In this document: piece after piece, positions 1,611 to 52,516 of the stretch
Layout: each line of letters opens with the position of its first letter
Numbering within the stretch: the stretch's first letter is position 1
DNA from: Blochmannia endosymbiont of Camponotus (Colobopsis) obliquus
GTDB lineage: Bacteria; Pseudomonadota; Gammaproteobacteria; Enterobacterales; Enterobacteriaceae
Direction of reading: 5' to 3'
Length of the DNA: 64,000 bases
NCBI RefSeq assembly: GCF_000973545.1
Contig: NZ_CP010049.1
Location: 372,001-436,000 of the forward strand
Notes under the pieces: generated by a model
Told to the model about the DNA's origin: nothing
Seen by the model: the letters and a program-made list of their open reading frames with translations, nothing else
The model's database searches: none
Position numbers and translations under genes: made by a program

Positions 1611-4196
1611 TTATTTTGATATAATATTTAGCAATTTATTTTTAATAAAAAATGTTTTGTAAAATTTATTTTTTTGCAAATATTTTTTTAATGAAGGATT
1701 GTGTAGTATATATTGTTGTATAATATTCTTTTCAGAATTAATTGGTACAGCAATTGTACAGCAAAATTTTCCGTTGTATTGAATTATAATATTTACTTCA
1801 GACTGCATGAGAGTTTGAGTATCTACACATGGCCATGAGGTTGCATCTATATTTTTTTTATTACCTAAAGCATTCCAAAGAACAAAAGCAATATGTGGAG
1901 TAAAAGGGTAAATTAATCTTACAATAACTTCTAGTGCTTCTTGTGTTAATGCTCGGTCTTGTTCTTCATTTTTAGATATTTTAGTTAATTTATTTGTAAA
2001 TTCCATTATAGAAGCAATAGCAGTATTAAACATTTGTCTTTTGTCGATGTCATGAGTAACTTTAGTAATAGTTTTATGTAGTTCTTGTCGTAATTTCTGT
2101 TGCTGTGTATTTAAGTTATTTATATTTAATTTAATTGTTGGACCTTTTTGAATATGATCATAAGTTAAGTTCCAAATACGATTTAGAAAACGTTTTGCTC
2201 CTTGTATACCAGATTCATTCCACTCGAGGGGCATTTCTGGTGGTGCAGCAAACATTATAAATAAACGTATAGTATCAGCGCCGTATTTTTCTATCATTGA
2301 TTGGGGATCTACCCCATTATTTTTTGATTTAGACATTTTAATCATACCAGCATGAATTAATGTATTTCCTTTATCATCTTTAGCTTCAATAATTTTTCCT
2401 TTTTTATTATATTTAATTTTAGTATTTTTAGAACAAATCCAAATTTTTTCATTATTATTTGATAAATAATAGAAGGCGTTTGCTAATACCATACCTTGAC
2501 ATAGTAATCTTTTTGCTGGTTCATCTGAATTAACTAAACCGAGCTCTTTCATTAATTTGTGAAAGAATCGAAAATATATCAAGTGCATTACAGCGTGTTC
2601 TATTCCACCAATATATTGGTCAATTGGTAACCAATAATTAGCAGAAGTTGAATGTAACATACCTTTTTTATAATTTGGACATGTATACCTTGCGTAGTAC
2701 CACGATGATTCTACAAACGTATCTAATGTATCTGTTTCACGAATTGCTGGATGTCCATTATGAATAATATTTTTCCATGTTTTATTAATTTTTAATGGAT
2801 TTAAAATATTATTATTGGTTTCGATATTTTCAGGTAGAATAACTGGTAATTGATTGATAGGAACTGGAATGACCTTCTTATTTTCAAGAGTGATCATTGG
2901 GATAGGTGTCCCCCAGTAGCGTTGACGTGATATTCCCCAATCTCGTAAACGATATTTTATTTTGTATTTTGCTAATCCGTGGTTTATTAATGATGTAGTA
3001 ATATTATTTAATTCAATTACATGATTACATTGTTTGTTATGTTTTTGTTTTGTATGTTTATATAAGTTTTTGTTTTTTGGTTCTATTTGAGAATTACAGC
3101 ATTCATGATTTATTTCGTGACAAATATTTATTGGTAAATTATATTTTTTTGCAAATTCCCAGTCTTGTTGATTGTTATTGGGCGCGCCCATTTTAATATC
3201 AGTTTCATTATTTGTTGTTAAAATATTGGTGATCCAAATAGGTAGTTCTTGATTACTGACAGGATGAACAGCATTTATATTACTTGCTATACCCTTTTTT
3301 TCTGTAGTAATTAATTCAGATTCAGTTAATTTGACAGCACGGAATGTTTTGATAAATTTTGCTATTTTTTCGCATGTAGCAGACAATTTTAATGATAAAG
3401 GATGATGTATGGATATTAAAATATATGTTGTTGCCATTAATGTTGCAATCTTTGTTGTGTAGATTGTTAGTATTTGATTGCTTTTTGTAATTTTAAAAGT
3501 AATTTCGAAACCTTGCGAGCGTCCTATCCAATTTTTTTGCATTTCTTTAATTTTTTTTGGCCAATATTTTAATTTATCTAAATCAAATAAAAGTTGTTCA
3601 GCATAATTTGTAATTTTTATAAACCATTGTGGTGTTTTTTTATGTTTTATATATGAATTGCAACGCCAACAACATCCATTAATTACTTGTTCATTAGCTA
3701 ATACAGTTTGATCTTGTGGACACCAGTTTACTAATGCAGTTTTTTTATATATTAATTTTTTTTTATATAAAATAGTAAATAGCCATTGTTCCCAAAGATA
3801 ATATTCTGGTTTACAAGTAGTTATTTCTCTACTCCAATCATAACCAAATCCTAATATTTTTAATTGTTTTTTCATATAATTAATATTAGAATATGTCCAT
3901 GATGAGGCTGAAGTTTTATGTATATATGCAGCCTGTTCTGCAGGCAAACCAAATGCATCCCATCCCATGGGTTGTAATACATTTTTTCCTAACATACGTT
4001 GATAACGAGAAATAACGTCACCTATAGTATAATTCCGTACATGACCCATATGTAATCGTCCAGAAGGGTATGGCAACATAGATAAACAATAATATTTTTT
4101 TTTATTTACATCTTCGGTAACCTGGAATGTTTTATGTTTTTCCCAATATTGTTGTACGGTTTGTTCTATTTGTTTTGGATAGTAAAATTTTTTCAT
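1611..4196 (-). CDS. leuS: leucyl-tRNA synthetase with degenerate editing site
   Basis: Charges tRNA-Leu. The 861 residues match the E. coli length of 860. The class I HIGH motif appears as HMGH (residues 49-52) and KMSKS lies in the C-terminal half, so the synthetic site looks intact, as does the Cys-rich block near residues 159-179. The CP1 editing domain is present but altered. The threonine-rich motif TTRPDT at 247-252 reads TTKIAT, and the GHDQRD motif at 340-345 reads NNNQQD. Thr247, Thr248, Thr252 and Asp345 remain, while R249K, P250I, D251A, H341N and D342N differ from E. coli. Proofreading is probably weakened or lost. First gene of the leuS-lptE-holA operon. Confidence 0.97.
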   Translation of the reverse strand: MKKFYYPKQIEQTVQQYWEKHKTFQVTEDVNKKKYYCLSMLPYPSGRLHMGHVRNYTIGDVISRYQRMLGKNVLQPMGWDAFGLPAEQAAYIHKTSASSWTYSNINYMKKQLKILGFGYDWSREITTCKPEYYLWEQWLFTILYKKKLIYKKTALVNWCPQDQTVLANEQVINGCCWRCNSYIKHKKTPQWFIKITNYAEQLLFDLDKLKYWPKKIKEMQKNWIGRSQGFEITFKITKSNQILTIYTTKIATLMATTYILISIHHPLSLKLSATCEKIAKFIKTFRAVKLTESELITTEKKGIASNINAVHPVSNQELPIWITNILTTNNETDIKMGAPNNNQQDWEFAKKYNLPINICHEINHECCNSQIEPKNKNLYKHTKQKHNKQCNHVIELNNITTSLINHGLAKYKIKYRLRDWGISRQRYWGTPIPMITLENKKVIPVPINQLPVILPENIETNNNILNPLKINKTWKNIIHNGHPAIRETDTLDTFVESSWYYARYTCPNYKKGMLHSTSANYWLPIDQYIGGIEHAVMHLIYFRFFHKLMKELGLVNSDEPAKRLLCQGMVLANAFYYLSNNNEKIWICSKNTKIKYNKKGKIIEAKDDKGNTLIHAGMIKMSKSKNNGVDPQSMIEKYGADTIRLFIMFAAPPEMPLEWNESGIQGAKRFLNRIWNLTYDHIQKGPTIKLNINNLNTQQQKLRQELHKTITKVTHDIDKRQMFNTAIASIMEFTNKLTKISKNEEQDRALTQEALEVIVRLIYPFTPHIAFVLWNALGNKKNIDATSWPCVDTQTLMQSEVNIIIQYNGKFCCTIAVPINSEKNIIQQYILHNPSLKKYLQKNKFYKTFFIKNKLLNIISK

Positions 4197-4853
4197 GATT
4201 ATAATTTTTTATGTTAATTAAAGATTTGTTTCTTTCATATTGTACAATATTATCGGCAATTATGGATCCAAAAATATATATTTAAATTTATGTATTTTAT
4301 ATTTTTATATGATTTGTGTTAAAATTGTTAATATTTTAAATGTATAAGTCATACAATTCAAAAATTTCATGTCATATTTTGGTTAATAAAATAATAATTA
4401 CTTATTTTAAGAATTATTTTTTATATCAAAAATAGATATTTTGATCATAAATATAATTTATGATGTATTTATTGATGTTATATAACATTATTTTTTGTCA
4501 ATTTGAAAATATATATTTACAGTATTATTTTTTAATTTAATTTTTTTAAGTATGAAAATGTAAAAATTTTTTAAATTCTATAAATAGTTATGTTAATAAT
4601 TAAAGCGATAAATTAATATCTTGTGTCATGCGAGAGTTGTATAAATGATCAAGAATACAGGTTATACATCATTTGTATGTAATAATGGGTAATATTATTT
4701 ATATTTAATTGTATTAAATATAAATTAAATATATAAAATATATAATTATTTAGTTATATATTGTTTATTTTTAATTTTTTATTACTGATTAGTGAATATT
4801 TAATAATTTTATAAATGTTTTCTATTGGTAATTTTTACTATTCATATTATTAA
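4197..4853. other. gene-free AT-rich stretch between leuS and lnt
   Basis: No open reading frame or RNA gene is recognisable. In E. coli the glutamate transporter genes gltIJKL and others lie between leuS and lnt, so this is probably the scar of their loss, but no remnant could be read. A 14-base palindrome at 4237-4250, about 40 bases upstream of leuS, may belong to its promoter region, but palindromes this short are common by chance in DNA this AT-rich. Confidence 0.5.
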
Positions 4854-6395
4854 TTAATTATTAATGTTTCTTCCGAAAATAAATGCTATAATTCCACATA
4901 TGAAAATTAAAATCCATAATGGGTAATATCCCATCTTAGCGTAGGGAGTAGTTCCTTTGGTAGGAAAGATATTCATATTTAATGTTTGACAAGTTGATGT
5001 AGGTAATTGTTTTTGAGATATGCCATCTGCACTCACTATAGCAGTTATGCCGTTGTTGGTGCAACTTAGCAGAGGTCTACCTAATTCAAGTGCACGCATA
5101 CATGCCATTTGAAAATGCTGCCATGGGCCGATGGAATTGCCAAACCAAGCATCATTAGAAATAATTAACAGAAAATCGGTATCTTTACAAAAATTTTTCT
5201 GTATTTGTTCATCAATTATTATTTCATAACAAATAGCTGCAGTAAATTTCATATTAGCCGCTTGTAATTGCGGTTGTAAATAATGGCCTTTTTGTAAAAA
5301 ATTTATTGGTAAATTTAAAAATGACGTTACGTGTTGTAGTATCATGGATGAAGGATTGATTTCTCCGAAAGGTACTAAATGGTGTTTGTTATAACGATTT
5401 TTAGTGTAATTATAACAATAAGGGATAGAGTCACCAAGTACTATGATACTATTATAATAAGTATATTTATATGATTTTTCATTTACCCCGATAATGCCAG
5501 TAATTAAGCTGGTATTATTTTGTCTTAATTGTTTATCTAATGTTAATAATAATTTTGTTTGATTAATTTCTAAATCTGGTATGGCTGTTTCAGGCCAAAT
5601 GATTATTTGTGTTTTATTTATAATCGGTAAAGTTTTTTGTAGATAGACATTTAATATTTCATTTATTTTTTCATTATTCCATTTTATATTTTGATCGATA
5701 TTACCTTGAATTAATGTTATGTTAACAGCACGTTGTGGCTGGATGTAATACCATCGTATTTGATTTAAAGGTGTTATGAATAATAACAATATTATTATTG
5801 TTAATAGTGATGGGTAATGTTTTTGCGTAAGAAAAAATGTTAACAAGCCACTTATGATTACAATTATGAAAGTAATGAATTTTACCCCAAAAATTGGTGC
5901 TAATCCTTTTAATGGACCATTGATTTGGCTGTATCCAAATTGTAACCATGGAAAGCCTGTTAATATCCAACCTCTTAAAAATTCGATTACCGACCATAAT
6001 ACAGAAGCCCCTAAAGTTAATCTCCATAAATTTGAATTAGGCCATATTTTAACCAACAAAATTGAAAATAATGTTGGATAAAATGTTAAATAAATAATAA
6101 ATATGCTTGTTATTAAAATACTTGTTAATGTTGATATTTCGCCAAATGTAGTCATACTGATATATATCCAGTGTACTCCAGTACCGAATAATCCAATACC
6201 CCATATAAAACCTTGCAGCGCGGCTTGTTTTATATTACATTGTAAAGTTGTTATTAGTAATCCAGTGAGAGAAAGAATGCTTAATGGCCAAAAATTGTAA
6301 GGAGAAAATGCAAAAACACCTACTATACCAGTTATCAAGGATAGTATACTATTGTATATATTTTGGTAAGATATTTTTGTGCATTTAATATTCAT
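4854..6395 (-). CDS. lnt: apolipoprotein N-acyltransferase
   Basis: Inner-membrane enzyme adding the third acyl chain to the N-terminal cysteine of lipoproteins. The 513 residues have several membrane segments within 1-210 and a nitrilase-like domain from about 225. The catalytic triad is visible as Glu269 (WPETAIP), Lys337 (YNKHHLVPFGE) and Cys389 (AAICYE), offset by two from E. coli E267, K335 and C387. It heads the lnt-corC-ybeY-ybeZ region in E. coli order. Its likely clients here are LptE and Pal. Confidence 0.96.
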   Translation of the reverse strand: MNIKCTKISYQNIYNSILSLITGIVGVFAFSPYNFWPLSILSLTGLLITTLQCNIKQAALQGFIWGIGLFGTGVHWIYISMTTFGEISTLTSILITSIFIIYLTFYPTLFSILLVKIWPNSNLWRLTLGASVLWSVIEFLRGWILTGFPWLQFGYSQINGPLKGLAPIFGVKFITFIIVIISGLLTFFLTQKHYPSLLTIIILLLFITPLNQIRWYYIQPQRAVNITLIQGNIDQNIKWNNEKINEILNVYLQKTLPIINKTQIIIWPETAIPDLEINQTKLLLTLDKQLRQNNTSLITGIIGVNEKSYKYTYYNSIIVLGDSIPYCYNYTKNRYNKHHLVPFGEINPSSMILQHVTSFLNLPINFLQKGHYLQPQLQAANMKFTAAICYEIIIDEQIQKNFCKDTDFLLIISNDAWFGNSIGPWQHFQMACMRALELGRPLLSCTNNGITAIVSADGISQKQLPTSTCQTLNMNIFPTKGTTPYAKMGYYPLWILIFICGIIAFIFGRNINN

Positions 6396-6431
6396 ATATT
6401 TAGTACGTGAAATTATTATATTTAATAGATT

Positions 6432-7277
6432 TTATGGGATTTGTACTAATACTTGAATGATACGACGACTATCTGTTAAAGATACTTTAAAAATATAGTT
6501 ATCAATATTAATTGATTCATGAATTTTTGGTAAATGTCCAAAAGATTGCATAATCAAGCCGCCAATAGTGTCAAATTCTTCATGATCAAAATGAGCATTG
6601 AATGTTTTATTAAATTTTTTTATAGGTGTTAACGCATGAACAATGAAAGTATGTTGATTGATTTGGTGGATTTCGTAATGTTCTTCATCATCATATTCAT
6701 CTTCAATATTACCTACGATAAGTTCAAGGATATCTTCGATGGTTATTAATCCAGACATATTTCCAAATTCGTCAATAATGATTGACATATGATAATGTTG
6801 ACAACGAAACTCTTTTAACATTCTATCTACACGTTTGTTTTCTGGTACTACTATAGCTGGCCGCATTATTTTTTCGATGTTAAAATGTTTAGTATTGAAC
6901 ATAAAAGGTAATAAATCTTTAACCATAAGAATACCTATAATGTGGTCTTTATTTTCACCAACTATTGGAAATCGTGAATGTGCATATTGTATAATTACGT
7001 CTAGGGAGTGTTGTAATGTTTGTGATTTATTTAAAGTTATTATTTGGGATTTTGGAATCATGATATCACGTACTTTTTTCTCAGTAAGATTAATGACTCC
7101 TTCTAACATTTTACGTGTATCGGTATCAATAAGCGAATGTTGTTCATAATTATGGATTAGTTTCAACAAATTTTTTCGATTTTTAGGTTCACTATGAAAT
7201 AATTGATTTAAGATTGTGGTAAAAAAATTTTTTTTATTACCAAGGTTATTATTTTCTTGTAGATGATGATCACTCAT
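6432..7277 (-). CDS. corC: CBS-domain protein CorC (YbeX)
   Basis: Cytoplasmic protein linked to magnesium/cobalt homeostasis and, more recently, ribosome maintenance. It has 281 residues against 292 in E. coli. Two CBS repeats span about 66-190, beginning VRDIMIP at 69 and including RFPIVGE and DEFG (169-172). A CorC/HlyC-type domain follows, containing DTIGGLIMQSFGHLP near 236-250. It lies between lnt and ybeY on the same strand, as in E. coli, with 13 bases to ybeY. Confidence 0.93.
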   Translation of the reverse strand: MSDHHLQENNNLGNKKNFFTTILNQLFHSEPKNRKNLLKLIHNYEQHSLIDTDTRKMLEGVINLTEKKVRDIMIPKSQIITLNKSQTLQHSLDVIIQYAHSRFPIVGENKDHIIGILMVKDLLPFMFNTKHFNIEKIMRPAIVVPENKRVDRMLKEFRCQHYHMSIIIDEFGNMSGLITIEDILELIVGNIEDEYDDEEHYEIHQINQHTFIVHALTPIKKFNKTFNAHFDHEEFDTIGGLIMQSFGHLPKIHESINIDNYIFKVSLTDSRRIIQVLVQIP

Positions 7278-7290
7278 ATTATTTTTTTAA

Positions 7291-7761
7291 TTATTTTGAT
7301 TTTTTATAATTAGTATTATGATATCCCAATTTATTTATAATTTTTTGTTCCATCATGTTCATATTTTTTGTTTCTTTATTTGAAAGATGGTTGTATCCTA
7401 ATAAATGTAAAACACCGTGAGTTACTATATGTGCCCAATGTAATTCAAGATTTTTTTTTTGTTTATGTGCTTCATTTTCTACTATTTGACGACAAATAAC
7501 TAAATCACCAAGTAATGGAGTTTTGATATTGGTTGGAGGGGTAAATGGGAAAGATAAAATATTAGTTGGATAATTTTTATTACGATATTGCGTATTTAAT
7601 GCACAACTTTCATTTTCATCCACTAATCTAATAGTTATTTCTGTTTTTCTATTATGATATGAATATAATATTATTTTTAGCCAACGTATAAATGTTAATT
7701 TGTGTGGTAAGCCGCATAAGCTGTCACAAGCTACTTGCAGGTTAAGGATGACTTGATTCAT
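7291..7761 (-). CDS. ybeY: endoribonuclease YbeY
   Basis: Metal-dependent RNase needed for 16S rRNA 3'-end maturation and late ribosome quality control. The 156 residues match the E. coli length of 155. The zinc-binding signature HGVLHLLGYNH supplies His115, His119 and His125, and the conserved Arg60 lies in the block RNKNYPTNILSFPF. It sits directly between corC and ybeZ, its usual partners. Confidence 0.96.
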   Translation of the reverse strand: MNQVILNLQVACDSLCGLPHKLTFIRWLKIILYSYHNRKTEITIRLVDENESCALNTQYRNKNYPTNILSFPFTPPTNIKTPLLGDLVICRQIVENEAHKQKKNLELHWAHIVTHGVLHLLGYNHLSNKETKNMNMMEQKIINKLGYHNTNYKKSK

Positions 7762-7821
7762 TTAGTTATTTATTTTGGTTATAATTGGATAATTATAGCA
7801 CTTTTAGTTGTGAAAGATATA

Positions 7822-8835
7822 TTATCTATGTTTTGTTTTTAGGAAATTGTTTTTTTCCCAATATTCATAGGCGTTAGTAATGTTTTTAACTATTGGATGT
7901 CTAATAACATCTTCGTTATGAAAGATGTTAAAACTTATACCTTTTATATTAGTTAAAATTTGCATTGCATGACATAATCCTGATGGTTGGTTTTGAGGTA
8001 AATCTATTTGAGTGATGTCGCCAGTAATAATTACTTTTGAATTAAAACCTATTCTAGTTAAAAACATCTTCATTTGTGCAATAGTTGTATTTTGTCCTTC
8101 ATCAAGAAGGATAAAAGCATGATTAAAGGTACGTCCTCGCATATAAGCTAATGGAGCTATTTCAATGATATTACGTTCAATTAATTTTTTTACTTTAGTA
8201 TGTCCCATAATTTTAAACATTGCATCATATAATGGATATAAGTAGGGGTGTATTTTTTGATATAAATCACCTGGTAAAAATCCTAATTTTTCGTCTACCT
8301 CTACTGCCGGCCTTGTTAATATAATTTTGTGAATATTTTGGTGTTCTAATGCTTGTATTGCTGTTGCTACAGCTAAATAGGTTTTTCCTGTTCCTGCCGG
8401 CCCAATACCAAATATAATATCATGATTACAAATATGAGTAATATACTTCATTTGGTTAATTGTTTTTGGTTTAACTAAAGAGTGTTTTGTATTAATGTTA
8501 ATAATTTTATTATGGTTAATAGGAATTAGTTTATTTTTTTCGAATGTTTTACTTTTTATAATAGCTAGATGTATTTGTTCTGGTCCAATATTAGTAATAA
8601 TGCCATTTAATGGAGCAGTATCTAGATATAAAGATGTAATTACAGTAGTAGCAATATCTATATGTATTGTATTTCCTATGAGTTGAAAAATGTTATTAAA
8701 TCGGTTTATAATGATATCTAATTGATGTTCAAGTTCTTTGATATTATTATCAAGTGGGCCGCATAAACTCATTAATCTGTTATTATCAATTGGTTCAAGT
8801 ATAATTTTTTTATTGTGAAGTTTATGTTTGGTCAT
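7822..8835 (-). CDS. ybeZ: PhoH-like ATPase YbeZ
   Basis: PhoH-family NTPase functionally associated with YbeY in RNA metabolism. It has 337 residues against about 346 in E. coli. Walker A is GPAGTGKT at 145-152. Walker B reads FILLDEGQNTT from 241, where E. coli has DEAQ; the Ala-to-Gly change is conservative. The upstream gene in E. coli, miaB, is missing and replaced by a gene-free stretch. Confidence 0.94.
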   Translation of the reverse strand: MTKHKLHNKKIILEPIDNNRLMSLCGPLDNNIKELEHQLDIIINRFNNIFQLIGNTIHIDIATTVITSLYLDTAPLNGIITNIGPEQIHLAIIKSKTFEKNKLIPINHNKIININTKHSLVKPKTINQMKYITHICNHDIIFGIGPAGTGKTYLAVATAIQALEHQNIHKIILTRPAVEVDEKLGFLPGDLYQKIHPYLYPLYDAMFKIMGHTKVKKLIERNIIEIAPLAYMRGRTFNHAFILLDEGQNTTIAQMKMFLTRIGFNSKVIITGDITQIDLPQNQPSGLCHAMQILTNIKGISFNIFHNEDVIRHPIVKNITNAYEYWEKNNFLKTKHR

Positions 8836-9279
8836 TTTATTTTAATTTAAAGAAATTTAATAGAAGAAGACAGTTTAAAGATTTATGTGTTGTTATGTTT
8901 TATTTGGTATATAAATATTTAAAATAATTTATAATTATTTTGATATTTGTTTGATTTTAAAACATAAAACATATGTTTTGTTACGAATATATATAATAAT
9001 ATTGATTACTTACTTGTGTAAATTAATGTATATGTTTTTTTCTAAATTTTAAAAAATCTGAGTTTATTTTTCAATGTGTATTATAAAATATTATGACATT
9101 GTGGATATTTACATATGTCATGTAATGTATCTGTGTTATAAATTGTACAATGTTTTATTATGGTAATTTTGATTAAATAATGAGTTGATATATAATATTT
9201 AAGTATAGTTAATATTAAAAACATGTTTTTAGATCATTTTATTATAATATATTTATAATAATGTTAATTATGTATAGTA
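8836..9279. other. gene-free divergent region at the miaB position
   Basis: A 444-base AT-rich stretch between minus-strand ybeZ and plus-strand ubiF. In E. coli the tRNA-methylthiotransferase gene miaB lies here on the ybeZ strand. The space is too short for miaB and no remnant was recognised. It should hold the divergent promoters of ybeZ and ubiF, but none can be assigned with confidence. Confidence 0.5.
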
Positions 9280-10473
9280 ATGAACAAATCTGATATATAT
9301 GATGTAATAGTAATTGGAGGAGGAGTCATAGGCAGTAGTTTTGCTTTATATCTTTCTCAATCTAATTTTAGAATAGCATTAGTTGAGAAAAATATTCAGA
9401 AATTAGTTGTGTCTAAAAATAATCCACCTGATCTGAAAGTATTAGCTATTAATTGTAATTCTATTAATTTTTTGACTGAAATTAATATTTGGCCATTTAT
9501 AGATGAGTTTTATTGTACTCCATATTGTCAATTAGAAACGTGGGAATATCAGGTAGCAAAGGTAACATTTAATTCTAATTCTATTTATTTATCTAAAATG
9601 GGATTTATTGTAGAATATCAAAGATTACAAACAGCCATGTGGCAATCTTTTGATAAACATGAAAATTTAACGTTGTATTATCCATTTTCAATTATTTCCA
9701 TAAAATATAACGGTGTTTATTGGCAAATAGAATTAAACGATAATAGAATAATTATAGGTCGTCTATTAATAGGAGCAGATGGCATGAATTCTAGTGTTAG
9801 AAAGTTATCGGGTATTTCTATTAGTGGCTGGGAATATGGTCAATCTTGTATGTTGTTAAGTGCAAGGGCAGAAAAAAAACAGTCAAATACTATTTGGCAG
9901 ATTATTACTCCTTGTGGTCTAAAAGGATGTTTACCGTTGTATGATAATTGGGTGTCTTTAATGTGGTATGATACAACAGAACGTATTCATCAACTAAAGA
10001 AATTACCTTTATTGGTATTAGAAAAAAAAATACGAAATGTATTTATGCCTAAATTAGGTAATATAAAATTATATAATGTAGGTTATTCTCATTTATTTTG
10101 TCAGCATGTACATGAGTACATACGACCAGGGTTAGCATTAATTGGTGATGCTGCGCATTGTATGCATTCTTTAGCAGGACAAGGGGTAAATCTTGGATTT
10201 AAAGATGCTGTAATGTTAGCAAGAATATTGATTGATGCTCGGAATAAAGATAATAGATATTGGGATAAAATAGAAGTTCTTCAATGTTACCAACATAAGC
10301 GTCGATACGATAATTTATTAATGCAAATTGGGATACACGCATTTTATCTTATTTTTATTAATAATAATATTTTTTTGAAAGTAATAAGAAATATTGGATG
10401 TATTTTTATCAATAATTCTAATTTCTTTAAGAAAAAAATATTAAAATATGCTTTAGGTATTTTAAAAAAATAA
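9280..10473 (+). CDS. ubiF: ubiquinone biosynthesis FAD monooxygenase UbiF
   Basis: Flavin-dependent hydroxylase of the UbiH/UbiF/VisC family, adding the last ring hydroxyl in ubiquinone synthesis. It has 397 residues against 391 in E. coli. The dinucleotide fold reads GGGVIG at 13-18, the second FAD motif GADG at 165-168, and the third GDAAH at 289-293 followed by GQGVNLG at 300. UbiH and UbiI share these motifs; UbiF is chosen because the gene follows the ybe cluster and precedes the Gln/Leu/Met tRNA cluster, as in E. coli. The quinone product would serve succinate dehydrogenase encoded downstream. Confidence 0.9.
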   Translation: MNKSDIYDVIVIGGGVIGSSFALYLSQSNFRIALVEKNIQKLVVSKNNPPDLKVLAINCNSINFLTEINIWPFIDEFYCTPYCQLETWEYQVAKVTFNSNSIYLSKMGFIVEYQRLQTAMWQSFDKHENLTLYYPFSIISIKYNGVYWQIELNDNRIIIGRLLIGADGMNSSVRKLSGISISGWEYGQSCMLLSARAEKKQSNTIWQIITPCGLKGCLPLYDNWVSLMWYDTTERIHQLKKLPLLVLEKKIRNVFMPKLGNIKLYNVGYSHLFCQHVHEYIRPGLALIGDAAHCMHSLAGQGVNLGFKDAVMLARILIDARNKDNRYWDKIEVLQCYQHKRRYDNLLMQIGIHAFYLIFINNNIFLKVIRNIGCIFINNSNFFKKKILKYALGILKK

Positions 10474-10824
10474 AGTAGATATATTTATATTTTTGTTGTG
10501 TTGTTGATTAATGAAATTATTTGTTATTACGTTATTAAATAAAATAAATTAAATATTATGAATAATAAATACTTAATTTTAGTTGTTTAAATTATGTATT
10601 ATGTAAAATATTTTGAAACTATGAATATTTTTGATTTATTTTAAAATTCAGTAGCCTAATTATTATTATAGAAATATTAATTATTTAGATATGTTAGTTT
10701 ATAGAAATATTTAAGTTTTTTGTTTATTTTGTAAATGATTCGTCAATTTTAAATTTTATTAATAGCATTTTGTTATAAAAATGTTGCGTATTTTTTTGAT
10801 GTTCGTGAATGTTATAATAAAACA
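10474..10824. other. gene-free stretch between ubiF and tRNA-Gln
   Basis: About 350 AT-rich bases between ubiF and the convergent minus-strand tRNA genes. No open frame, tRNA or convincing terminator hairpin was recognised. Confidence 0.5.
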
Positions 10825-10898
10825 CTGGGGTACCAGGATTCGAACCTAGGAATGGTGGGATCAAAACCCACTGCCTTAAACCACTTGGCTATACCCCA
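10825..10898 (-). tRNA. tRNA-Gln (anticodon TTG)
   Basis: The minus strand begins TGGGGTATAGCC and folds as a 74-base cloverleaf with a TTTTGAT anticodon loop (anticodon TTG) closed by a GTGGG/CCCAC stem, a standard T arm, and U1-A72 in the acceptor as in E. coli tRNA-Gln. The 3' CCA is not encoded: the next bases are TGT. The Gln-Leu-Met grouping matches the E. coli metT-leuW-glnUWVX locus. Confidence 0.95.
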
Positions 10899-14265: not shown

Positions 14266-15948
14266 ATGAAACGACCTATTGTATATAGAAATAATTTTAT
14301 TTATCAAATTATTGAAAAAGATTTATCTCTTGATAAATCTAAAATAATACGTACAAGATTTCCACCAGAACCTAATGGATATTTACATGTTGGGCATGCA
14401 AAATCAATATGTTTAAATTTTGGTGTCGTACAATATTATCACGGTCAGTGTTATTTACGTTTTGATGATACTAATCCAGTTAACGAAGATATACAATATG
14501 TTGAAGCCATTAAAAACGATATTGTATGGTTAGGTTTTCAATGGCATGGTGATGTACGTTATGCTTCAGATTATTCTGAAAAATTATATAATTATGCTGT
14601 AGAACTAATAAATAAAGGATTAGCGTATGTAGATGAATTGTCACCAAATAAAATTCGTGAGTATCGTGGAACATTAGTTTTGCCGGGCAAAAATAGTCCT
14701 TATCGTTCTCGACATATAAAAGAAAATTTAATGTTGTTTACTAAAATGCGACAGGGATATTTTGCAGAAGGAAAAGCTTGTTTACGGGCTAAAATTGATA
14801 TGTCATCTCCTTATATGATTATGCGAGATCCTGTTCTTTATAGAATTAAATTTATACATCACCAACGTGTTGGAGATAAGTGGTGTATTTATCCAACCTA
14901 TGATTTTACTCATTGTATTTCTGATGCTCTGGAAGGTATTACTCATTCTTTATGTACTTTAGAATTTCAAGATAATCGCAGATTATATGATTGGATTTTA
15001 AATAAAATTAATATTAACGTGCATCCACGTCAATATGAATTTTCACGTCTTAATTTGGAATATGCTGTAATGTCTAAACGTAAACTTGATTTATTAGTAT
15101 TACATAATATTGTAACAGGATGGGATGATCCACGTATGCCAACTATTTCGGGTTTGCGTAGGCGTGGTTATACCCCCGAATCTATTCGTGAATTTTGTTA
15201 TCGTATTGGTGTTACTAAACAAGAAAGCTGCATAAACATGGCAGCATTAGAAGCTTGTATCAGGAAAGATTTAAATGACAAGGTATCACGTGTTATGGCC
15301 GTTCTCGATCCTATAAAAATAATTATTAATAATTTACCTGATAAGTATGAAGAAAAAATTGTTGCGTTGAATCATCCTAATAAATTGGATATGGGAACTC
15401 GTCAAATTTTTTTTACTAAAGAAATATTTATTGATCGCAATGATTTTTGTGAAATAGTTAATGATTATAAAATTAGAAAATTAATATTAGGTAAAAAAAT
15501 ACGTTTACGTAACGCGTATGTTATTCAGGCTGAACGAGTGCAGAGAGATAATAATGGAGCTATTAGTATAATTTTCTGTACATATGATTCTCAAACACTT
15601 AATAAGAATCCTATTGATTGTCGTGATGTTAAGGGTGTTATTCATTGGGTGTCAGCAACGAGGAATGTGATTGCAGAATTTCGTTTGTATAATCATTTAT
15701 TTACAATATCTAATCCATGGGCAGTGAAAAATTTTTTATCGTATGTAAATCCTCGTTCTTTGGTTATTTATCATGGTTTTGTTGAAGATAGTGTTTTATA
15801 TTCTAAAAAGAATAAACATTATCAGTTTGAACGTGAAGGATATTTTTGTATTGATGAGTGTTATTCTACTGCAAATAAATTAGTATTTCATCGTACGGTA
15901 GAATTGAAGAGCATATGGAAAACAAAAAATAATAAAAAAATCCTATGA
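14266..15948 (+). CDS. glnS: glutaminyl-tRNA synthetase
   Basis: Class I synthetase charging tRNA-Gln, the tRNA encoded at 10825-10898. It has 560 residues against 554 in E. coli. The HIGH-type motif lies in [15 protein letters not shown] at 33-47, and the KMSKS equivalent is VMSKRKL near residue 270. The dinucleotide-fold and C-terminal beta-barrel regions are complete. GlnRS has no editing domain, so the proofreading losses seen in LeuRS, ThrRS and PheRS do not apply here. Confidence 0.97.
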
Positions 15949-43895: not shown

Positions 43896-43901
43896 ATACT
43901 A

Positions 43902-44741
43902 ATGATAATGACTTGGAAAAAATGGTTAGAATGGGCTCAAACACAATTGTATTGTTCTACTAGCCCACGACTTGATGCAGAAATTATTTTAAGTAAAATA
44001 CTTAATAAATCACGTACTTATATTTTAGCATTTGATGACACTGTGTTGAATGAAATAGAAAAATATAATCTTCTTAAACTACTGTATCGAAGAAAACAAG
44101 GTGAACCCATAGCTTATTTGATAGGAATGCAAGAATTTTGGTCTTTAAATATTCAAGTATATTATGATATTTTTATTCCCCGTTCTGACACAGAATGTCT
44201 TGTAGAACAAGTATTAAATTTATTTACAACGCCCAATATAAAAGTGTTAGATTTAGGCACTGGTTCTGGAGCTATTGCGTTAGCAATAGCTTCAGAACAT
44301 CCAGAATGGGATATAACTGCTGTAGATTGTCAAATGCAAGCTATAAAACTTGCTTGTGCTAATGCTGTCCATTTAAACTTAAATAATATACTATTTTTAT
44401 ATGGAAATTGGTTTAATTTATTGCACAATAATTATTACAACGTAATAGTAAGTAATCCACCTTATCTTGATATTCAAGATTCACATTTACTATGTGCAAA
44501 TTTAAAATTCGAATCTAAACAATCTTTAATTTCAGCAAATCAAGGATTAGCAGATTTAAATATCATTATAAAATATTCACCTAAACATTTATTGCATGGA
44601 GGATGGTTAATTGTAGAACATGGTTGGAAACAAGGACGGTGTGTACGTGTTTTATTTAAAAATTCTGGTTTTAAAAAAATTGTTACATTGCGAGATTACA
44701 ACAAAAACGAAAGAGCAACTTGTGGACAATGGTGTTATTAA
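43902..44741 (+). CDS. prmC: release factor glutamine methyltransferase
   Basis: SAM-dependent enzyme methylating the GGQ glutamine of release factors 1 and 2. It has 279 residues against 277 in E. coli. SAM motif I is DLGTGSG at 117-123 and the catalytic NPPY lies at 185-188. The start may be ATG 43902 or ATG 43908, as the first codons are M-I-M. It is translationally close to prfA, as in E. coli. Confidence 0.95.
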   Translation: MIMTWKKWLEWAQTQLYCSTSPRLDAEIILSKILNKSRTYILAFDDTVLNEIEKYNLLKLLYRRKQGEPIAYLIGMQEFWSLNIQVYYDIFIPRSDTECLVEQVLNLFTTPNIKVLDLGTGSGAIALAIASEHPEWDITAVDCQMQAIKLACANAVHLNLNNILFLYGNWFNLLHNNYYNVIVSNPPYLDIQDSHLLCANLKFESKQSLISANQGLADLNIIIKYSPKHLLHGGWLIVEHGWKQGRCVRVLFKNSGFKKIVTLRDYNKNERATCGQWCY

Positions 44742-45997
<1,256 letters not shown>

Positions 45998-46405
45998 TAT
46001 TCCGTAAAATATTTATTATATTTTTTATTATAATTCAAATTTATTGTGCATTGTAAAGTACAATATATTAACTTTTTGTTAAAGTAACTATATTAAAAAT
46101 TGATTACATATATCAATGTTTTAAATAACAAACGATACATAAGAATGTTTTATATATAAAATATCAGAAAATAAATTAAATATTAATATATCATTTACTA
46201 ATAAAATTTTTTCACCTGAACTTTGATAAAAAAAATTAGATGTTTTTTCTTTGTTAATACAAAGATATATTTTTTAGATTATTTTAATTATAAATATTTA
46301 TTATGTTATAATGAAAACGGTAGAGTACGATTAAAATTGTTTATATACATAGAATAAAAATTAATATAATTAACTAAATATACACTATATTTAATATTTA
46401 AATAT
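45998..46405. other. gene-free stretch upstream of truncated thrS
   Basis: About 410 AT-rich bases. A full thrS would need roughly 700 bases upstream of the present ATG, more than lies before kdsA, so most of the lost 5' part of thrS has been deleted. A few bases near 46303-46325 (coding I-M-K-T) resemble the LMKTAG stretch just before the missing boundary, but the match is too short to call. TATAAT-like runs abound and no promoter is assigned. Confidence 0.5.
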
Positions 46406-47650
46406 ATGGATGCACGTGACCATCGTAAACTTGGAAAACAACTAGATTTGTATCATATGCAAGAAGAAGCTCCTGGGATGGTATTCTGGCATAATAATGG
46501 TTGGATAATTTTGCATGAATTAAAAAAATTTATACGTACAAAGTTGAAAGTTTATCAATATCAAGAAGTAAAAAGTCCTATAATGATGGATCGTGTATTA
46601 TGGGACAAAACCGGACATTGGGAAAATTATGCAGAACATATATTTTCTACAGTTTCAGAAAATCGTGATTATTGTATTAAACCAATGAATTGTCCTGGGC
46701 ATATACAAATTTTTAACCAATCTTTAAAATCCTATAAAGATTTACCAATACGTATGGCAGAATTCGGTAATTGTCATCGTAACGAACCTTCCGGGTCTTT
46801 ACATGGATTAATGAGAGTGCGGAGTTTCCTTCAAGACGATGCTCATATTTTTTGCACTATATCTCAAGTACGTGAAGAAATAAAAAATTGCATAAAAATG
46901 ACATATGATATATATGCTACATTTGGATTTAATAAAATTATTGTTAAACTTTCTACTCGCCCAGAAAAACGTATTGGCAATGATACATTATGGGATGTAG
47001 CAGAGCATGATTTATCTAGTATTTTAACTGAAATTGGAGTATCATTTACATATCAAAAATTTGAAGGAGCATTTTATGGCCCCAAAATCGAATTTTCTTT
47101 ACTTGATTGTTTAGATCGCACTTGGCAATGTGGTACGGTACAATTAGATTTTTCTCTTCCACATCGCCTGAATGCTTTTTACATTAATAAAAAAAACGAA
47201 CGAATTGCACCAATAATGATTCATAGAGCTATTCTTGGCTCAATAGAAAGGTTTATCGGTATTTTAACAGAAGAATTTTCAGGTTTCTACCCAACTTGGT
47301 TAGCTCCAATACAAGTGGTCTTAATGAACATTACTTCTGATCAAACTGATTATATTTTAAAATTAGCACAAAAATTATCTCAACATAATATTAGAATAAA
47401 ATTAGATTTAAGAAATAAAAAAATAGGCTTTAAAATTCGAGAACATACTTTACATCGTATACCGTATATGTTGGTATGTGGTAACAAAGAAATAAATATG
47501 AATAAAGTTGCTGTGCGTACTTTCCGTGGCAAAACTTTAGGTCATTATGACATTAATATCTTTATAAAAAAGATACTATATGAAATTAAAAATTATGGTC
47601 TTAATCAACTGGAGAACAACGTATTAAAGGTGGAAAAAAAAATTATTTAA
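46406..47650 (+). CDS. thrS: threonyl-tRNA synthetase lacking TGS and editing domains
   Basis: Charges tRNA-Thr. The product is 414 residues against 642 in E. coli. It starts at [17 protein letters not shown], matching E. coli from residue 239, so the TGS domain and the N2 editing domain are absent; an in-frame stop at 46367 and the short upstream space rule out a longer frame. The catalytic core and anticodon domain are complete, with zinc ligands Cys96, His147 and His273 (E. coli 334, 385, 511). At the 3' end the ancestral stop has become a sense codon, adding about 10 residues that run 28 bases into infC. Confidence 0.93.
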
Positions 47651-48159
47651 CACGTTCTAATCGTGTTAATCAAAATATTCATGCAGTTGAAGTACGATTA
47701 ACTGATATAAATGGTAAACAAGTTGGTATTGTTAGTTTACGTGAAGCACTTGCACAAGCTGAAGCATCAGGAGCTGATTTAGTTGAAATTAGCTCAAATG
47801 CTTTACCTCCTGTATGTCGTATAATGAATTACGGTAAATTTCTTTATGAAAAAAACAAATCTTCAAAAGAACAAAAAAAGAAACAAAAAACAATTCAAAT
47901 TAAAGAAATAAAATTTAGACCCAATACTGAAGAAGCTGATTATCAAGTAAAATTACGTAACTCAGTTCGTTTTCTTAAAGATGGTGATAAAATAAAAATA
48001 ACATTAAGATTTCGTGGCGGAGAAATAGTGCATCAACAAATAGGTACGAAAGTATTAAATCGTGTGCGTAAAGATTTAGAACAAATTTCAATAGTGGAAT
48101 ATTTTCCTAACAAACTTGAAGGTAAACAGTTAGTTATGATTTTAGCACCAAAAAAATAA
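47623..48159 (+). CDS. infC: translation initiation factor IF-3 (AUU start)
   Basis: Prevents premature subunit joining and polices initiator tRNA. The start is taken as ATT 47623, which gives 178 residues beginning MKGGKKNYL, like E. coli MKGGKRVQT. E. coli infC uses the same rare AUU start, the basis of IF-3 autoregulation; a shorter frame from ATG 47824 would lose the whole N-terminal domain. A GGAG ribosome site lies at 47611-47614. The N domain has [10 protein letters not shown] and the C domain [18 protein letters not shown]. Its first 28 bases overlap the extended end of thrS. Confidence 0.95.
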
Positions 48160-48265
48160 CAATTTAATATCAAAAGTAAGTATATATAATTTACTCAATG
48201 TTTTATTTTTTTACAAAAATATTTTTTATAAAAATATAGAATGTTATTATAGAGATTAGTAATAC

Positions 48266-48463
48266 ATGTTTAAAATAAAAACAATCAATAGCGTTAAAAA
48301 AAGATTCAAAAAAACATCTTCTGGTACATTTAAGTATAAACATGCCAATTTACGTCACATTTTAACTAAAAAGTCTAGCAAAAGAAAACGTCATTTACGT
48401 CATAAATCCATAATTGCTACAAATCACTTAGTGCGTATAAAAAAATTTTTACCATATTTTTAA
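48266..48463 (+). CDS. rpmI: 50S ribosomal protein L35
   Basis: Small basic large-subunit protein, 65 residues as in E. coli. The core [23 protein letters not shown] matches closely from residue 23. It lies between infC and rplT; in E. coli L20 represses L35 and itself through the upstream RNA. Confidence 0.97.
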
Positions 48464-48521
48464 TTTAATACAATACATCATTAAAATATGTAATTGCTTG
48501 CATCATCATCCAGGAGACATA

Positions 48522-48881
48522 ATGACACGTAGTAAAAATAGCGTTGTTTCACGAATGCGTCATAAAAAAATAATAAAACAAGCAACAAGTTATTATGGCG
48601 CTCGTTCACGTACATACCGTACTGCTTTTCAAGCAGTCATAAAAGCAAATCAATATTCTTATCGTGATCGACGTCAAAAAAAAAGACAATTTCGTAGGCT
48701 GTGGATTACTCGAATTAATGCTGCAGCCAGATTGCATGGCATTTCTTATAGTAAATTAATTAACAAATTAAAACAATCATCTATAGGATTAAATCGCAAG
48801 ATTCTTGCAAATATTGCGATTTTGGATAAAAAAACTTTTGCAAATTTAGTAAATTTATCAAAAAAAAATGAAATTATGTGA
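48522..48881 (+). CDS. rplT: 50S ribosomal protein L20
   Basis: Early-assembly 23S rRNA-binding protein. ATG 48522, preceded by AGGAG at 48512-48516, gives 119 residues (E. coli 118); an in-frame start at 48498 adds eight residues (MHHHPGDI) without counterpart and includes the ribosome site itself. The [19 protein letters not shown] block and [21 protein letters not shown] are strongly conserved. Confidence 0.97.
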
Positions 48882-49114
48882 ATAATATTTATAAAAAAAT
48901 TTATTAAAATGTAAAAATAATTTATATATATTTATTTTCTATACATATATTGATATTTATATATATTACATTGGTTATAAAAAAATATTTTTATTTATTT
49001 ATACCGATAAAATTAAATTTATATTGATATTGTATAATTAATAATTATAAAATATTGGAACTTTCTTTGCATCTCAACTATATATTTTAATCGAAATAAA
49101 CTGGTAAATAAAAA

Positions 49115-50101
49115 ATGTTAAATATTTCAAATTTAATTACACAAGCTAAAAAATATATAGAACAATCTCAGGATTTACGTGCACTAGAACTAATAAAAGT
49201 AGCTTTTTTGGGTAAAAAAGGATATATAAAGCAACAAATAGCAATGTTATGCAGTTTGACATATGAAGAACGAATAAAAAGAGGTAAATGTATTAACCAA
49301 GCTAAACAACTAATACAAAAATTAATTTATGAACGTACAAATATATTAGAACTAAAATTAATTAATGAAGAAATTTTAAAAAATAAAATAGATATATCTT
49401 TGCCTGGTCGAAAAATAGATAATGGTAGATTACATCCAATAACACTTGCTATAATTAAAATCAAAAATTTTTTTAAAAAATTGGGTTTTAACACAGTATA
49501 TGGGTTAGAAATTGAAGATAATTATCATAATTTTGATGCTTTAAATATCCCTATACATCATCCAACTCGTACGGATCATGACACTTTTTGGTTAGACTCA
49601 CACAGACTGTTACGAACTCAAACTTCTAGCATACAAATTCGTACTATGAAATCACAACAACCCCCAATTCGTATTATTGAATGTGGCCGCGTTTATCGTA
49701 ATGATTACGACAAACAACATACCCCGATGTTTCATCAAATAGAAGGGTTAATGATTGATGTAAATATTACTTTTTCTAATTTAAAAGGAATATTATATGA
49801 TTTTTTGCATGATTTTTTTAATAAAAATATAAAAATTCGTTTTCGGCCATCTTATTTTCCATTTACAGAGCCATCCGCAGAAATTGATATTATGGAGGAA
49901 AAACAGGGTGTATGGTTAGAAATTTTAGGTTGTGGTATGGTACATCCTAATGTATTACGTAATGTTGGTATTAATTTAGAAAGATTTTCAGGATTTGCTT
50001 TTGGTATAGGTATAGAACGATTAGCAATGTTAAATTATGGAATAACAGATTTACGTGTATTTTTTAAAAATGATTTACGTTTTTTACAACAGTTTAAATA
50101 A
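49115..50101 (+). CDS. pheS: phenylalanyl-tRNA synthetase alpha subunit
   Basis: Catalytic subunit of the alpha2-beta2 class II synthetase. It has 328 residues against 327 in E. coli. Motif regions include the [11 protein letters not shown] segment, [20 protein letters not shown] (motif 2 region) and [15 protein letters not shown] (motif 3). The 233-base gap before it contains no readable pheM leader peptide, unlike E. coli. It lies 24 bases before pheT. Confidence 0.97.
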
Positions 50102-50125
50102 ATCTTAATAATAAGAGTTATTATT

Positions 50126-52516
50126 GTGAAGGTTAGTGAATCCTGGTTACGAGAATGGATTGGTTCGGACCTGAATATTAAGGAATTAACTGAATCCTTG
50201 ACTATGTCCGGATTAAAAGTAAATTCATTGCATCCTGCTGCGAATTATTTTGATGGAGTAATTATTGGAAATATAATAGCATGTAGACAACATTTTATTT
50301 ATAATGATTTATGGATAATAAAAGTAAATATTGGTGATGACAATCCATTAAATATTGTGTGTAGTGCAACTAATTGCACTACACATTTAAAAGTTGTAGT
50401 AGCCAAATCGGGTGCAACTATAACTGGTAAAAAAAAAATAAAAACTATTGAAGTACATGGATACAGATCAGAAGGTATGTTATGTTCTTTTAAAGAACTA
50501 GGTATACTTAATTCTGGTTCTGATATTATTATATTGCCTGACGATGCACCTATAGGATTAGATTTTAGAGATTATTTAAAATTTGATGATAATGTTATTG
50601 ATATAAGCATTCCTTTTAATAGAGGAGATTGTTTGGGGTTACTTGGAATTGCTCGTGATATAACAATAATTAATAAATTATTGTTACAAAAACCACAAAT
50701 TCACTCTATACAACCAATTATTAATGATATATTACCTATTCATGTTTCTGAACCTAATGCATGTCCTTGTTATTTAGGTAGAATAATAAAAAATATCGAT
50801 AATACTATATCTATACCATTATGGATGAAAGAAAGATTAAGGCGTAGTGGAATATGTTTTATTAATCCAATAATGGACATAATAAATTATGTTAGTTTAG
50901 AATTAGGTTATCCAATCAATGCTTTTGATCTAAATAAAATTTCTGGCAGTGTTTTTGTGCGTTTAGCAAAACAAGGAGAATCATTACAACTATTGAATAA
51001 CACAAAAATAAATATTCAAACAGATACATTAGTAATTGCAGATCAAAAACAACCATTAGCTATAGCTGGTATTGTAAATGGAACAAATTCAATTGTTGAT
51101 AAATCAACTTGTTCTATTCTATTAGAATGTGCGTTTTTTTCTTCATCTATTCTTATAGGTAAAGCAAAAAGATATGGTTTATCTAATGCCTTGTCATATC
51201 GTTATGAGCGAGGCATCGACCCTACATTAACTAAAAAAGTTATGGAACGTATTACATTTTTTTTAGTTAAGATTTGTGGAGCTTATCCAGGCCCAATATT
51301 GAATGTCACGAATTTAAATATGTTACCTAAATTAAACATGATTATTTTACATAAAAGTAAATTAAATAAGTTAATAGGTCATTTTATTTCAAATGACGAA
51401 ATAAATAACATTTTAACAAGAATTGGTTGCAAAGTAACACAAATTACTAAAGATTGGAGAATATCAATTCCTTATTGGCGCTATGATCTTAAATTAGAAG
51501 AAGATCTAATAGAAGAAATAATAAGAATATATGGTTATGATAAATTACCTATGAGTTCAATATATAGTACTTTAAAAACTATTAATATCAATAAAAAACA
51601 ATTTTCATTATTAAGAATTAAAAACCTTCTTGTGGATCGTGGTTATCAAGAAGTTATTACATATAGTTTTGTAAATCCAATAATTCAAAATTTATTATTT
51701 CCACAAAAAAAATCATTAAAAATTGCCAATCCTACTTCAATAGAAATGTCTGTCATGCGTTTATCATTATGGAGTAGTTTAATAAGCACAATTATTTATA
51801 ATCAAAACCGTCAGCAACAAAGAATGAAATTGTTTGAAAGTGGTATGGTGTTTTTTTCAGATAAAAATGAACCATGGAAAATTGGTCAACATTTTATGTT
51901 ATCTGGAATTATTACAGGAATGCGTTATGAGGAATATTGGGATCATAAAAATCATTATTTCATGGATTTCTATGATATAAAAGGTGATGTTGAAGCAATA
52001 TTAAATATGACTAATAAAATAAATAAGATAGAATTTAAAGTAACGACTAATACAGCATTACATCCAGGACAAAGTGCAGGAATATATCTTAAGAATGAAT
52101 GTATTGGATTTTTAGGTTTGATACATCCTATACTAGAAAAGCAATTAAATTTAAATAGTCATACATTAGTTTTTGAAATTTTTTGGGAAAAAATTTCAAA
52201 AACTAATGTATCCAAAATTTTTAATGTTACTCGTTTTCCTATTAATCGTAGAGATATTAATATTATAGTTGCAGAAGAAATTGCTGGAGGAGATGTTATT
52301 AATGAATGTAAAATAATTTTAAAACAAGAATTAATTAATATAAAATTATTAGATGTATATCGAGGAAATAACATAAGTAAAGGTTTTAAAAGTTTAACTA
52401 TTAGTTTGTTTCTATACAATGATTATCACACATTGACAGAAATAGAAACTAACGAAATTATTGTAAAATGTATACAGAAATTAAGAAAAAAATTTCAAGC
52501 ATCTTTAAAAACATGA
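50126..52516 (+). CDS. pheT: phenylalanyl-tRNA synthetase beta subunit with altered editing pocket
   Basis: Non-catalytic subunit that binds tRNA and normally hydrolyses Tyr-tRNA-Phe. It starts at GTG 50126 (MKVSESWLREW, like E. coli), 796 residues against 795. In the B3/B4 editing domain four of five known pocket residues are changed: His265 to Asn (GYPINAFD), Gly318 to Asn, Thr354 to Asn and Ala356 to Leu (GLSNALSYRYERG); Glu334 stays. Numbering matches E. coli without offset. The N-terminal tRNA-binding fold lacks the HPNADKL block (HFIYNDL here). ihfA, which follows in E. coli, is absent. Confidence 0.95.
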   Translation: MKVSESWLREWIGSDLNIKELTESLTMSGLKVNSLHPAANYFDGVIIGNIIACRQHFIYNDLWIIKVNIGDDNPLNIVCSATNCTTHLKVVVAKSGATITGKKKIKTIEVHGYRSEGMLCSFKELGILNSGSDIIILPDDAPIGLDFRDYLKFDDNVIDISIPFNRGDCLGLLGIARDITIINKLLLQKPQIHSIQPIINDILPIHVSEPNACPCYLGRIIKNIDNTISIPLWMKERLRRSGICFINPIMDIINYVSLELGYPINAFDLNKISGSVFVRLAKQGESLQLLNNTKINIQTDTLVIADQKQPLAIAGIVNGTNSIVDKSTCSILLECAFFSSSILIGKAKRYGLSNALSYRYERGIDPTLTKKVMERITFFLVKICGAYPGPILNVTNLNMLPKLNMIILHKSKLNKLIGHFISNDEINNILTRIGCKVTQITKDWRISIPYWRYDLKLEEDLIEEIIRIYGYDKLPMSSIYSTLKTININKKQFSLLRIKNLLVDRGYQEVITYSFVNPIIQNLLFPQKKSLKIANPTSIEMSVMRLSLWSSLISTIIYNQNRQQQRMKLFESGMVFFSDKNEPWKIGQHFMLSGIITGMRYEEYWDHKNHYFMDFYDIKGDVEAILNMTNKINKIEFKVTTNTALHPGQSAGIYLKNECIGFLGLIHPILEKQLNLNSHTLVFEIFWEKISKTNVSKIFNVTRFPINRRDINIIVAEEIAGGDVINECKIILKQELINIKLLDVYRGNNISKGFKSLTISLFLYNDYHTLTEIETNEIIVKCIQKLRKKFQASLKT

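Follow-up and report, generated by a model that had tools for sequence, protein, structure and literature searches.

Probable selective loss of aminoacyl-tRNA proofreading in the reduced genome of a Blochmannia endosymbiont

Damaged editing sites in LeuRS, PheRS and ThrRS

The stretch of DNA analysed here (the window, 64,000 nucleotides) covers bases 372001–436000 of the genome of the Blochmannia endosymbiont of Camponotus (Colobopsis) obliquus (B. obliquus; G000 in our set of 14 Blochmannia genomes, G000–G013), a reduced, host-restricted genome held in a single contig of 773,940 bp. It encodes leucyl-, threonyl- and phenylalanyl-tRNA synthetase (LeuRS, ThrRS and PheRS, the last as PheS plus PheT), the three that a first-pass annotation had named as the window's only synthetases with editing domains. 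A scan of 19 window open reading frames, out of 44 of at least 150 aa, bears this out, as the sole further synthetase, GlnRS (14266–15948), has no editing domain among its Pfam domains. That all three editing sites are lost or damaged, and by three routes, likewise holds: domain deletion in ThrRS, substitutions in LeuRS and pocket remodelling in PheRS. We consider it likely that B. obliquus, like many strongly reduced enterobacterial symbionts, has shed cis-proofreading selectively, losing it in LeuRS, PheRS and ThrRS and keeping it in the isoleucyl, valyl and alanyl enzymes (IleRS, ValRS and AlaRS). The features concerned are as follows.

1611..4196, minus strand: leuS, leucyl-tRNA synthetase, 861 aa (TIGR00396, 1048.7 bits)
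3114..3536, minus strand: LeuRS CP1 editing domain, residues 221–361, recognisable, with its active-site motifs broken (PF13603, 144.9 bits)
3423..3458, minus strand: LeuRS threonine-rich motif, residues 247–258, with R249K, P250I and D251A; T247, T248 and T252 kept
3162..3212, minus strand: LeuRS second editing motif, residues 329–345, with D342N, H341N, G331E, G333D and others; D345 kept
45998..46405, plus strand: A+T-rich gap (GC 14%) upstream of thrS, the place of the TGS and editing domains in relatives, with no recognisable remnant
46406..47650, plus strand: thrS, threonyl-tRNA synthetase shortened to 414 aa, with just the catalytic core and the anticodon-binding domain (TIGR00418, matched from profile position 170; PF00587, PF03129)
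49115..50101, plus strand: pheS, alpha subunit of PheRS, with its specificity residue Ala294 retained (TIGR00468, 346 bits)
50126..52516, plus strand: pheT, PheRS beta subunit, 796 aa (TIGR00472, 783.9 bits)
50759..51280, plus strand: PheRS B3/4 editing domain, residues 212–385, recognisable, with its pocket remodelled (PF03483, 197.7 bits)
50846..50929, plus strand: PheRS editing residues R244C, T253I and H265N
51059..51214, plus strand: PheRS editing pocket with G318N, T354N, A356L and H358Y; E334 kept

As judged from the gene itself, loss of the editing site is firm for ThrRS. The predicted enzyme corresponds to residues 242–641 of the 642 in E. coli ThrRS, its Pfam matches are confined to the core (PF00587) and the anticodon-binding domain (PF03129), and it has neither a TGS nor a SAD domain, while the zinc ligands C334, H385 and H511 are kept. 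The truncated protein aligns over its full length with ThrRS core chains of solved structures, such as 1evk (401 aa) and the yeast mitochondrial 3ugq. The latter, MST1, is likewise a minimal ThrRS composed of the core and the anticodon-binding domain without the TGS and editing domains; unlike it, the B. obliquus form arose by truncation of a bacterial gene, with domain fossils in six sister genomes. In the 408 bp between kdsA and thrS each forward frame holds 11–13 stops, an in-frame TAA lies 13 codons 5' of the ATG, and tblastn gave no convincing match there. A complete thrS with a frameshift rescued by transcriptional slippage was rejected because of the 11–13 stops in every forward frame and the lack of a recognisable upstream domain, and the six fossils of the sister genomes each hold several stops, not one homopolymer slip. 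Across the whole B. obliquus genome, PF07973 finds one SAD domain at E ≤0.1, within an 887-aa frame that is AlaRS.

The LeuRS editing domain is recognisable, with altered active-site motifs. Four of the eight residues that we scored as editing determinants are changed; the substitutions comprise R249K, P250I, D251A, H341N and D342N, and 11 of the 15 residues from 330 to 344 differ. We also compared, between the editing domain and the rest of the enzyme, the sites that are invariant in E. coli and the large-genome relatives (G014–G027, 2.0–5.5 Mb, taken as free-living by size alone); this invariant-site test needs no chosen residues. In LeuRS, 32 of 57 invariant sites are changed in the editing domain vs 30 of 276 elsewhere (p 7e-13; E. 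coli and 13 large-genome relatives). In the PheRS beta subunit, five of six determinants are changed (the substitutions are R244C, T253I, H265N, G318N, T354N and A356L), and change is concentrated in the pocket, affecting 4 of 5 invariant determinants vs 28 of 86 other invariant sites of the domain. The PheRS determinants are changed more than the rest of the domain in 13/13 Blochmannia scored and in 29 of 30 other reduced genera.

Both lesions recur throughout the genus, by different routes. At least two of eight LeuRS determinants are changed in 13 of 14 Blochmannia, G009 having one; T252I is found in 11/14, T247I together with T248A in G011, and loss of the second motif in B. obliquus. For PheRS, at least two of six determinants are changed in all 13 Blochmannia scored (pheT of G008 was left out): G318 is replaced in 13/13, A356 has become a residue larger than Ser in 10/13, and E334, kept in G000, has been replaced by Q, G or K in the remaining 12. 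The ratio of nonsynonymous to synonymous substitution rates (dN/dS), calculated by the NG86 method for close pairs of Blochmannia (16 for leuS and 11 for pheT, none involving the too distant G000), is 0.21–0.59 for the LeuRS editing domain vs 0.15–0.21 for the body, and 0.15–0.24 vs 0.17–0.29 for PheRS. Neutral drift of these domains in the relatives is thus not borne out, the values being well below 1, and the low ratios imply that both domains remain constrained. Sequencing error was judged unlikely, as the reading frames are open and relatives have lesions in these same enzymes.

For thrS, the genus preserves successive states. The ThrRS editing domain is intact in four of the 14 Blochmannia (G005, G007, G010, G012), present 5' of thrS as a fossil with several stops in six (G001, G002, G004, G006, G008, G013) and unrecognisable in four (G000, G003, G009, G011), a series (intact, fossil, erased) that captures an editing domain being lost inside one genus. 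On a tree built from the IleRS and ValRS bodies, the four genomes of the last group sit on long branches, with values of 80/78 at the fork separating G000 from the others, and the pattern calls for five losses if only losses are allowed (hand count), unordered parsimony giving three. Where it is intact, it changes at 2.1–2.8 times the rate of the body (dN, 4 pairs).

Editing sites in the rest of the genome

The first-pass annotation had read the three lesions as a sign of relaxed quality control across the genome, and had pointed to IleRS, ValRS, AlaRS, ProRS and the free-standing editing factors as the places to look. In B. obliquus no determinant of ValRS or AlaRS is changed, T246S is the one change among the seven of IleRS, and the editing domains are not significantly more changed at invariant sites than the rest of each enzyme: 16/69 vs 75/390 in IleRS (p 0.5), 20/75 vs 123/450 in ValRS (p 1.0) and 8/56 vs 27/164 in AlaRS (p 0.8). 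The genome-wide part of the claim is not supported by these three enzymes; with them, the first half of what the annotation had itself named as grounds for refuting its reading, intact editing sites in the remaining synthetases, is in place. For ProRS the outcome is mixed: the INS domain has no excess of change (15/49 vs 39/171, p 0.26) and K279 is kept, but H369Y is present, a substitution seen in 13/13 Blochmannia scored vs 0/10 large-genome relatives, and ProRS editing may thus be altered genus-wide. The INS domain is eroded in 11 of those 13, with 25–35 of its 49 invariant sites changed, G000 and G009 being the exceptions.

The 14 Blochmannia agree with B. obliquus. None has more than one changed determinant in IleRS, ValRS or AlaRS, whether or not T246 is counted, and the isolated changes are few: one determinant each in IleRS and ValRS of G003, AlaRS R693K in G004 and IleRS T246S in G000 when wider determinant lists are used, and, at neighbouring sites, IleRS A331I (G000) and H338Y (G001) and AlaRS G667T (G003). 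The ratio of editing-domain to body change within the genus is 0.8–1.3 for ValRS and 0.5–1.1 for AlaRS. All determinants are unchanged in the large-genome relatives sampled (14 LeuRS, 6 PheT, 14 ThrRS, 7 IleRS, 7 ValRS and 13 AlaRS, with A356S not counted); pheT was sampled in seven of these 14 genomes, as were valS and ileS, the pheT of G023 was not found in the stretch taken, and G016 PheT, which is cut, and G018 LeuRS were left out of the invariant-site test. The final determinant lists are shorter than the first ones, leaving out, among others, IleRS T246 and A331, AlaRS Q584 and R693, and PheRS T253; counts were redone with T246, Q584 and R693 added, and again without D342 and R244.

No free-standing substitute was found in the B. 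obliquus genome within the SAD, INS and DTD families, the ones searched among such factors: the single SAD domain is that of AlaRS, the single INS domain that of ProRS, and neither a YbaK or SAD factor nor DTD turned up. DTD had no match above the cut-off in any of the 14 Blochmannia, with sub-threshold matches containing stops in G009 and G011, and no INS match was seen in them beyond frames of ProRS length.

Two further Blochmannia genes deserve mention. The ProRS of G011 (L209), which was aligned separately and stands outside the ProRS scoring (hence 13 Blochmannia), is a 603-aa frame in which a spacer of INS length has no PF04073 match, with a lysine still aligned to K279; it is a possible fourth lost editing site in that genome. 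In G004, ileS (L186) is split across two frames near residues 136–139, a candidate for transcriptional slippage, which has been described in Blochmannia.

Recurrence in other reduced symbionts

In the 149 genomes of the family (hand count), fewer than two SAD matches occur in 20 of 38 genomes of at most 0.9 Mb vs a single genome (G076, 87% complete) among the 110 above that size, G102 (84% complete) being set aside from the smaller group. This PF07973 count is a first proxy for ThrRS editing and undercounts its loss: G031, G069, G088 and G098, each with two SAD matches, have substituted ThrRS sites. We surveyed determinants directly in 30 of the 36 non-Blochmannia genera at ≤0.9 Mb (G030, G125, G126, G141, G146 and G156 were left out on grounds of completeness, contamination or contig number). 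At least two determinants are changed in LeuRS in 25 of them, in PheRS in 26, in ThrRS in 23, in IleRS in none and in ValRS in two (G127, G148), and in 22/30 LeuRS, PheRS and ThrRS are all affected. With stricter sets that omit D342 and R244 the figures are 21 for LeuRS, 26 for PheRS and 19 for all three, and counting T246 gives one genus (G116) with two IleRS changes. If one changed determinant suffices, the counts rise to 28 (LeuRS), 30 (PheRS) and 26 (ThrRS). The N-terminal region of ThrRS is absent altogether in 7/30.

The invariant-site test agrees for LeuRS and ThrRS, not for PheRS. Median ratios of domain to body change over the 30 genera are 2.14 for LeuRS (above IleRS in 27/30), 1.92 for ThrRS (above IleRS in 25/30), 1.40 for IleRS and 0.86 for ValRS. 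In the eight genera where the three enzymes are not all affected, PheRS is affected in four, LeuRS in three and ThrRS in one, which gives a weak hint that PheRS and LeuRS tend to go before ThrRS. The fewest changes on a ValRS tree, itself poorly resolved, are three for LeuRS, four for PheRS and two for ThrRS, and six for absence of the ThrRS domain.

Some of these enzymes depart further from the usual pattern. The LeuRS, IleRS and ValRS of G127 (~0.3 Mb; L236, L328, L359) contain 19, 17 and 18 in-frame TGA codons, respectively, so that TGA probably codes for an amino acid in that genome. The IleRS of G149 (L329) is of a divergent type, a 1052-aa frame with 27% identity to the E. coli enzyme over residues 25–773, and was perhaps acquired from elsewhere. 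Part of the LeuRS CP1 region has no alignable sequence in G074 (~290–412; L239), G110 (~353–400; L237) and G152 (~351–399; L238), which suggests partial deletion of the editing domain.

Probable selective loss and its alternatives

From the lesions we infer a loss of activity along the following lines. ThrRS, with its whole N-terminal TGS and editing region gone, would work as a minimal core and anticodon-binding enzyme; the LeuRS and PheRS editing domains would persist as folded parts, probably for structure and tRNA binding, with their hydrolytic or substrate pockets presumably broken. Ser-tRNA(Thr), Tyr- and meta-Tyr-tRNA(Phe) (m-Tyr-tRNA), and norvaline- and Ile-tRNA(Leu) would probably be cleared poorly or not at all, with whatever effect on the proteome this may have. 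Cells may be able to do without editing if the charging site discriminates well enough or the mistake is mild, and the IleRS, ValRS and AlaRS editing sites may have been spared because these enzymes have intrinsically leaky charging sites or make toxic errors. Passages of PMC6918089 report normal growth of E. coli with ThrRS C182A and affected growth with AlaRS C666A, and already single out LeuRS, ThrRS and PheRS as synthetases with potential for proofreading loss. PMC9023258 places IleRS misactivation of Val and norvaline ~10-fold above the tolerable rate of 1 in 3300, and in passages of PMC4066437 changes at PheRS G318 hinder editing in E. coli, for which m-Tyr or oxidative stress are named as the exception conditions.

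Several observations weigh against selective loss in this form. According to passages of PMC6918089, E. coli is harmed when Ser reaches high levels at Thr codons. T247, T248, T252 and D345 survive in the B. obliquus LeuRS, as does E334 in its PheRS, which leaves room for partial editing, and residual activity may remain in both. The PheRS domain as a whole has no enrichment for change over the rest of the protein in B. obliquus (32/91 vs 92/276, p 0.8), and its median ratio in the 30 genera is 1.22, above IleRS in just 13/30; the PheRS case thus rests on the pocket residues. The choice of determinants draws on general background, and passages bear out G318 (PMC4066437), C182 and C666 (PMC6918089), and IleRS T246 and H333 (mutated in PMC9023258); the last paper's T246 is the editing-site residue that is Ser in G000. 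The IleRS domain, too, evolves somewhat faster than the body of the enzyme (dN/dS 0.13–0.39 vs 0.08–0.18 in Blochmannia pairs; domain/body ratio above 1 in 26/30 genera), and for this reason a raised rate alone is no mark of editing loss. Retention is not absolute: one IleRS determinant is changed in 12/30 genera and at least one in ValRS in 4/30, and G127 and G148 have 4/7 ValRS determinants changed. AlaRS H564, H568, C666 and H670 are intact in 12/12 enzymes examined, a biased sample made up of the strongest SAD matches, and G148 has just one SAD match, a weak one (E 1.4e-4), so that its AlaRS may be degenerate too. Finally, the 30 genera are not independent, and the ValRS tree is poorly resolved.

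Of the alternatives, the one that survives best is that the charging sites have become more selective, or that pre-transfer editing in the core has taken over, so that fidelity is normal despite the lost post-transfer editing; we regard this as possible but rather doubtful. PheS with its standard Ala294 and ThrRS with its retained zinc ligands give no sign of an altered charging site at these residues. There is nevertheless precedent for such compensation: passages of PMC4267643 describe a yeast mitochondrial ThrRS that lacks the editing domain and keeps tRNA-dependent pre-transfer editing, and a review describes a mitochondrial PheRS that compensates through active-site specificity.

Quality control could instead be relaxed across the whole translation system, with a statistically mistranslated proteome, as the first-pass annotation had held. 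Three lost or damaged editing sites, the lack of any YbaK or DTD match and ProRS H369Y would fit, and a review reports mistranslation in Mycoplasma through LeuRS and PheRS; we find this improbable nonetheless, given that B. obliquus and the genus at large retain the IleRS, ValRS and AlaRS editing residues, that the ProRS INS domain of B. obliquus has no excess of change and that the surviving domains are under purifying selection in relatives. It is similarly improbable that the remodelled pockets of LeuRS and PheRS remain active in editing, perhaps on other substrates, with the activity truly gone in ThrRS only. The five residues kept in B. obliquus and the constraint on both domains in relatives speak for continued editing, but change at LeuRS invariant sites is five times as frequent in the editing domain as elsewhere, the PheRS changes run through all (G318) or most (A356) of the Blochmannia scored and G318 is where changes hinder editing in E. 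coli, and the pocket residues vary between lineages, unlike what we would expect of a site with a new fixed use. That selection favoured the loss for the benefit of a varied proteome to the symbiont, as reviews propose for parasites, is very improbable, there being no obvious gain for a mutualist inside bacteriocytes and the many-stop thrS fossils resembling decay.

Selective loss also fits what is known of other host-dependent bacteria. The likeness to Mycoplasma lies in the same three enzymes, in domain loss or site substitution and in a reduced, host-dependent genome; the bacteria are unrelated, and B. obliquus differs in being a mutualist with all three affected at once, as seen here in its DNA. 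Editing-deficient LeuRS, ThrRS and PheRS of Mycoplasma were reportedly found by Li et al. in 2011, and a widespread loss of editing by synthetases of host-restricted bacteria is said to have been described by Melnikov et al. (2018, PNAS), to which B. obliquus is alike in having degenerate sites in a small host-restricted genome that are intact in free-living species. Passages of PMC10057733, PMC7373986, PMC4014445 and PMC6918089 also cover the Mycoplasma enzymes, and as far as these sources go it is established that editing loss in host-restricted bacteria was already known; B. obliquus adds to that kind, and the first-pass annotation was right to see agreement with such reports. The matches listed include no paper on Blochmannia synthetase editing or ThrRS, and neither "tRNA synthetase" nor "thrS" occurs in the main text of the papers describing the B. 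obliquus and B. vafer genomes.

We lean slightly towards a fixed order in which proofreading is given up, with PheRS, LeuRS and ThrRS expendable and usually lost together at ≤0.8 Mb (PheRS and LeuRS tending to precede ThrRS), and a core of IleRS, ValRS and AlaRS surviving until extreme reduction. Passages of PMC7373986 state that no Mycoplasma was known to have lost three or more, and deduce an upper limit from this. By sequence, triple loss looks common in enterobacterial symbionts, and it was not known in Mycoplasma per that 2020 review. If the fixed order is true, tolerance would depend on the kind of error made rather than on the number of editing sites lost, contrary to the Mycoplasma "upper limit" of two. 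Through these findings the vague idea of sloppy symbiont translation becomes a specific, testable question, namely which proofreading steps a cell can do without.

One neighbouring gene of the window overlaps the end of thrS: infC, at 47623–48159, when read from an ATT codon. The infC gene of E. coli has an AUU start.

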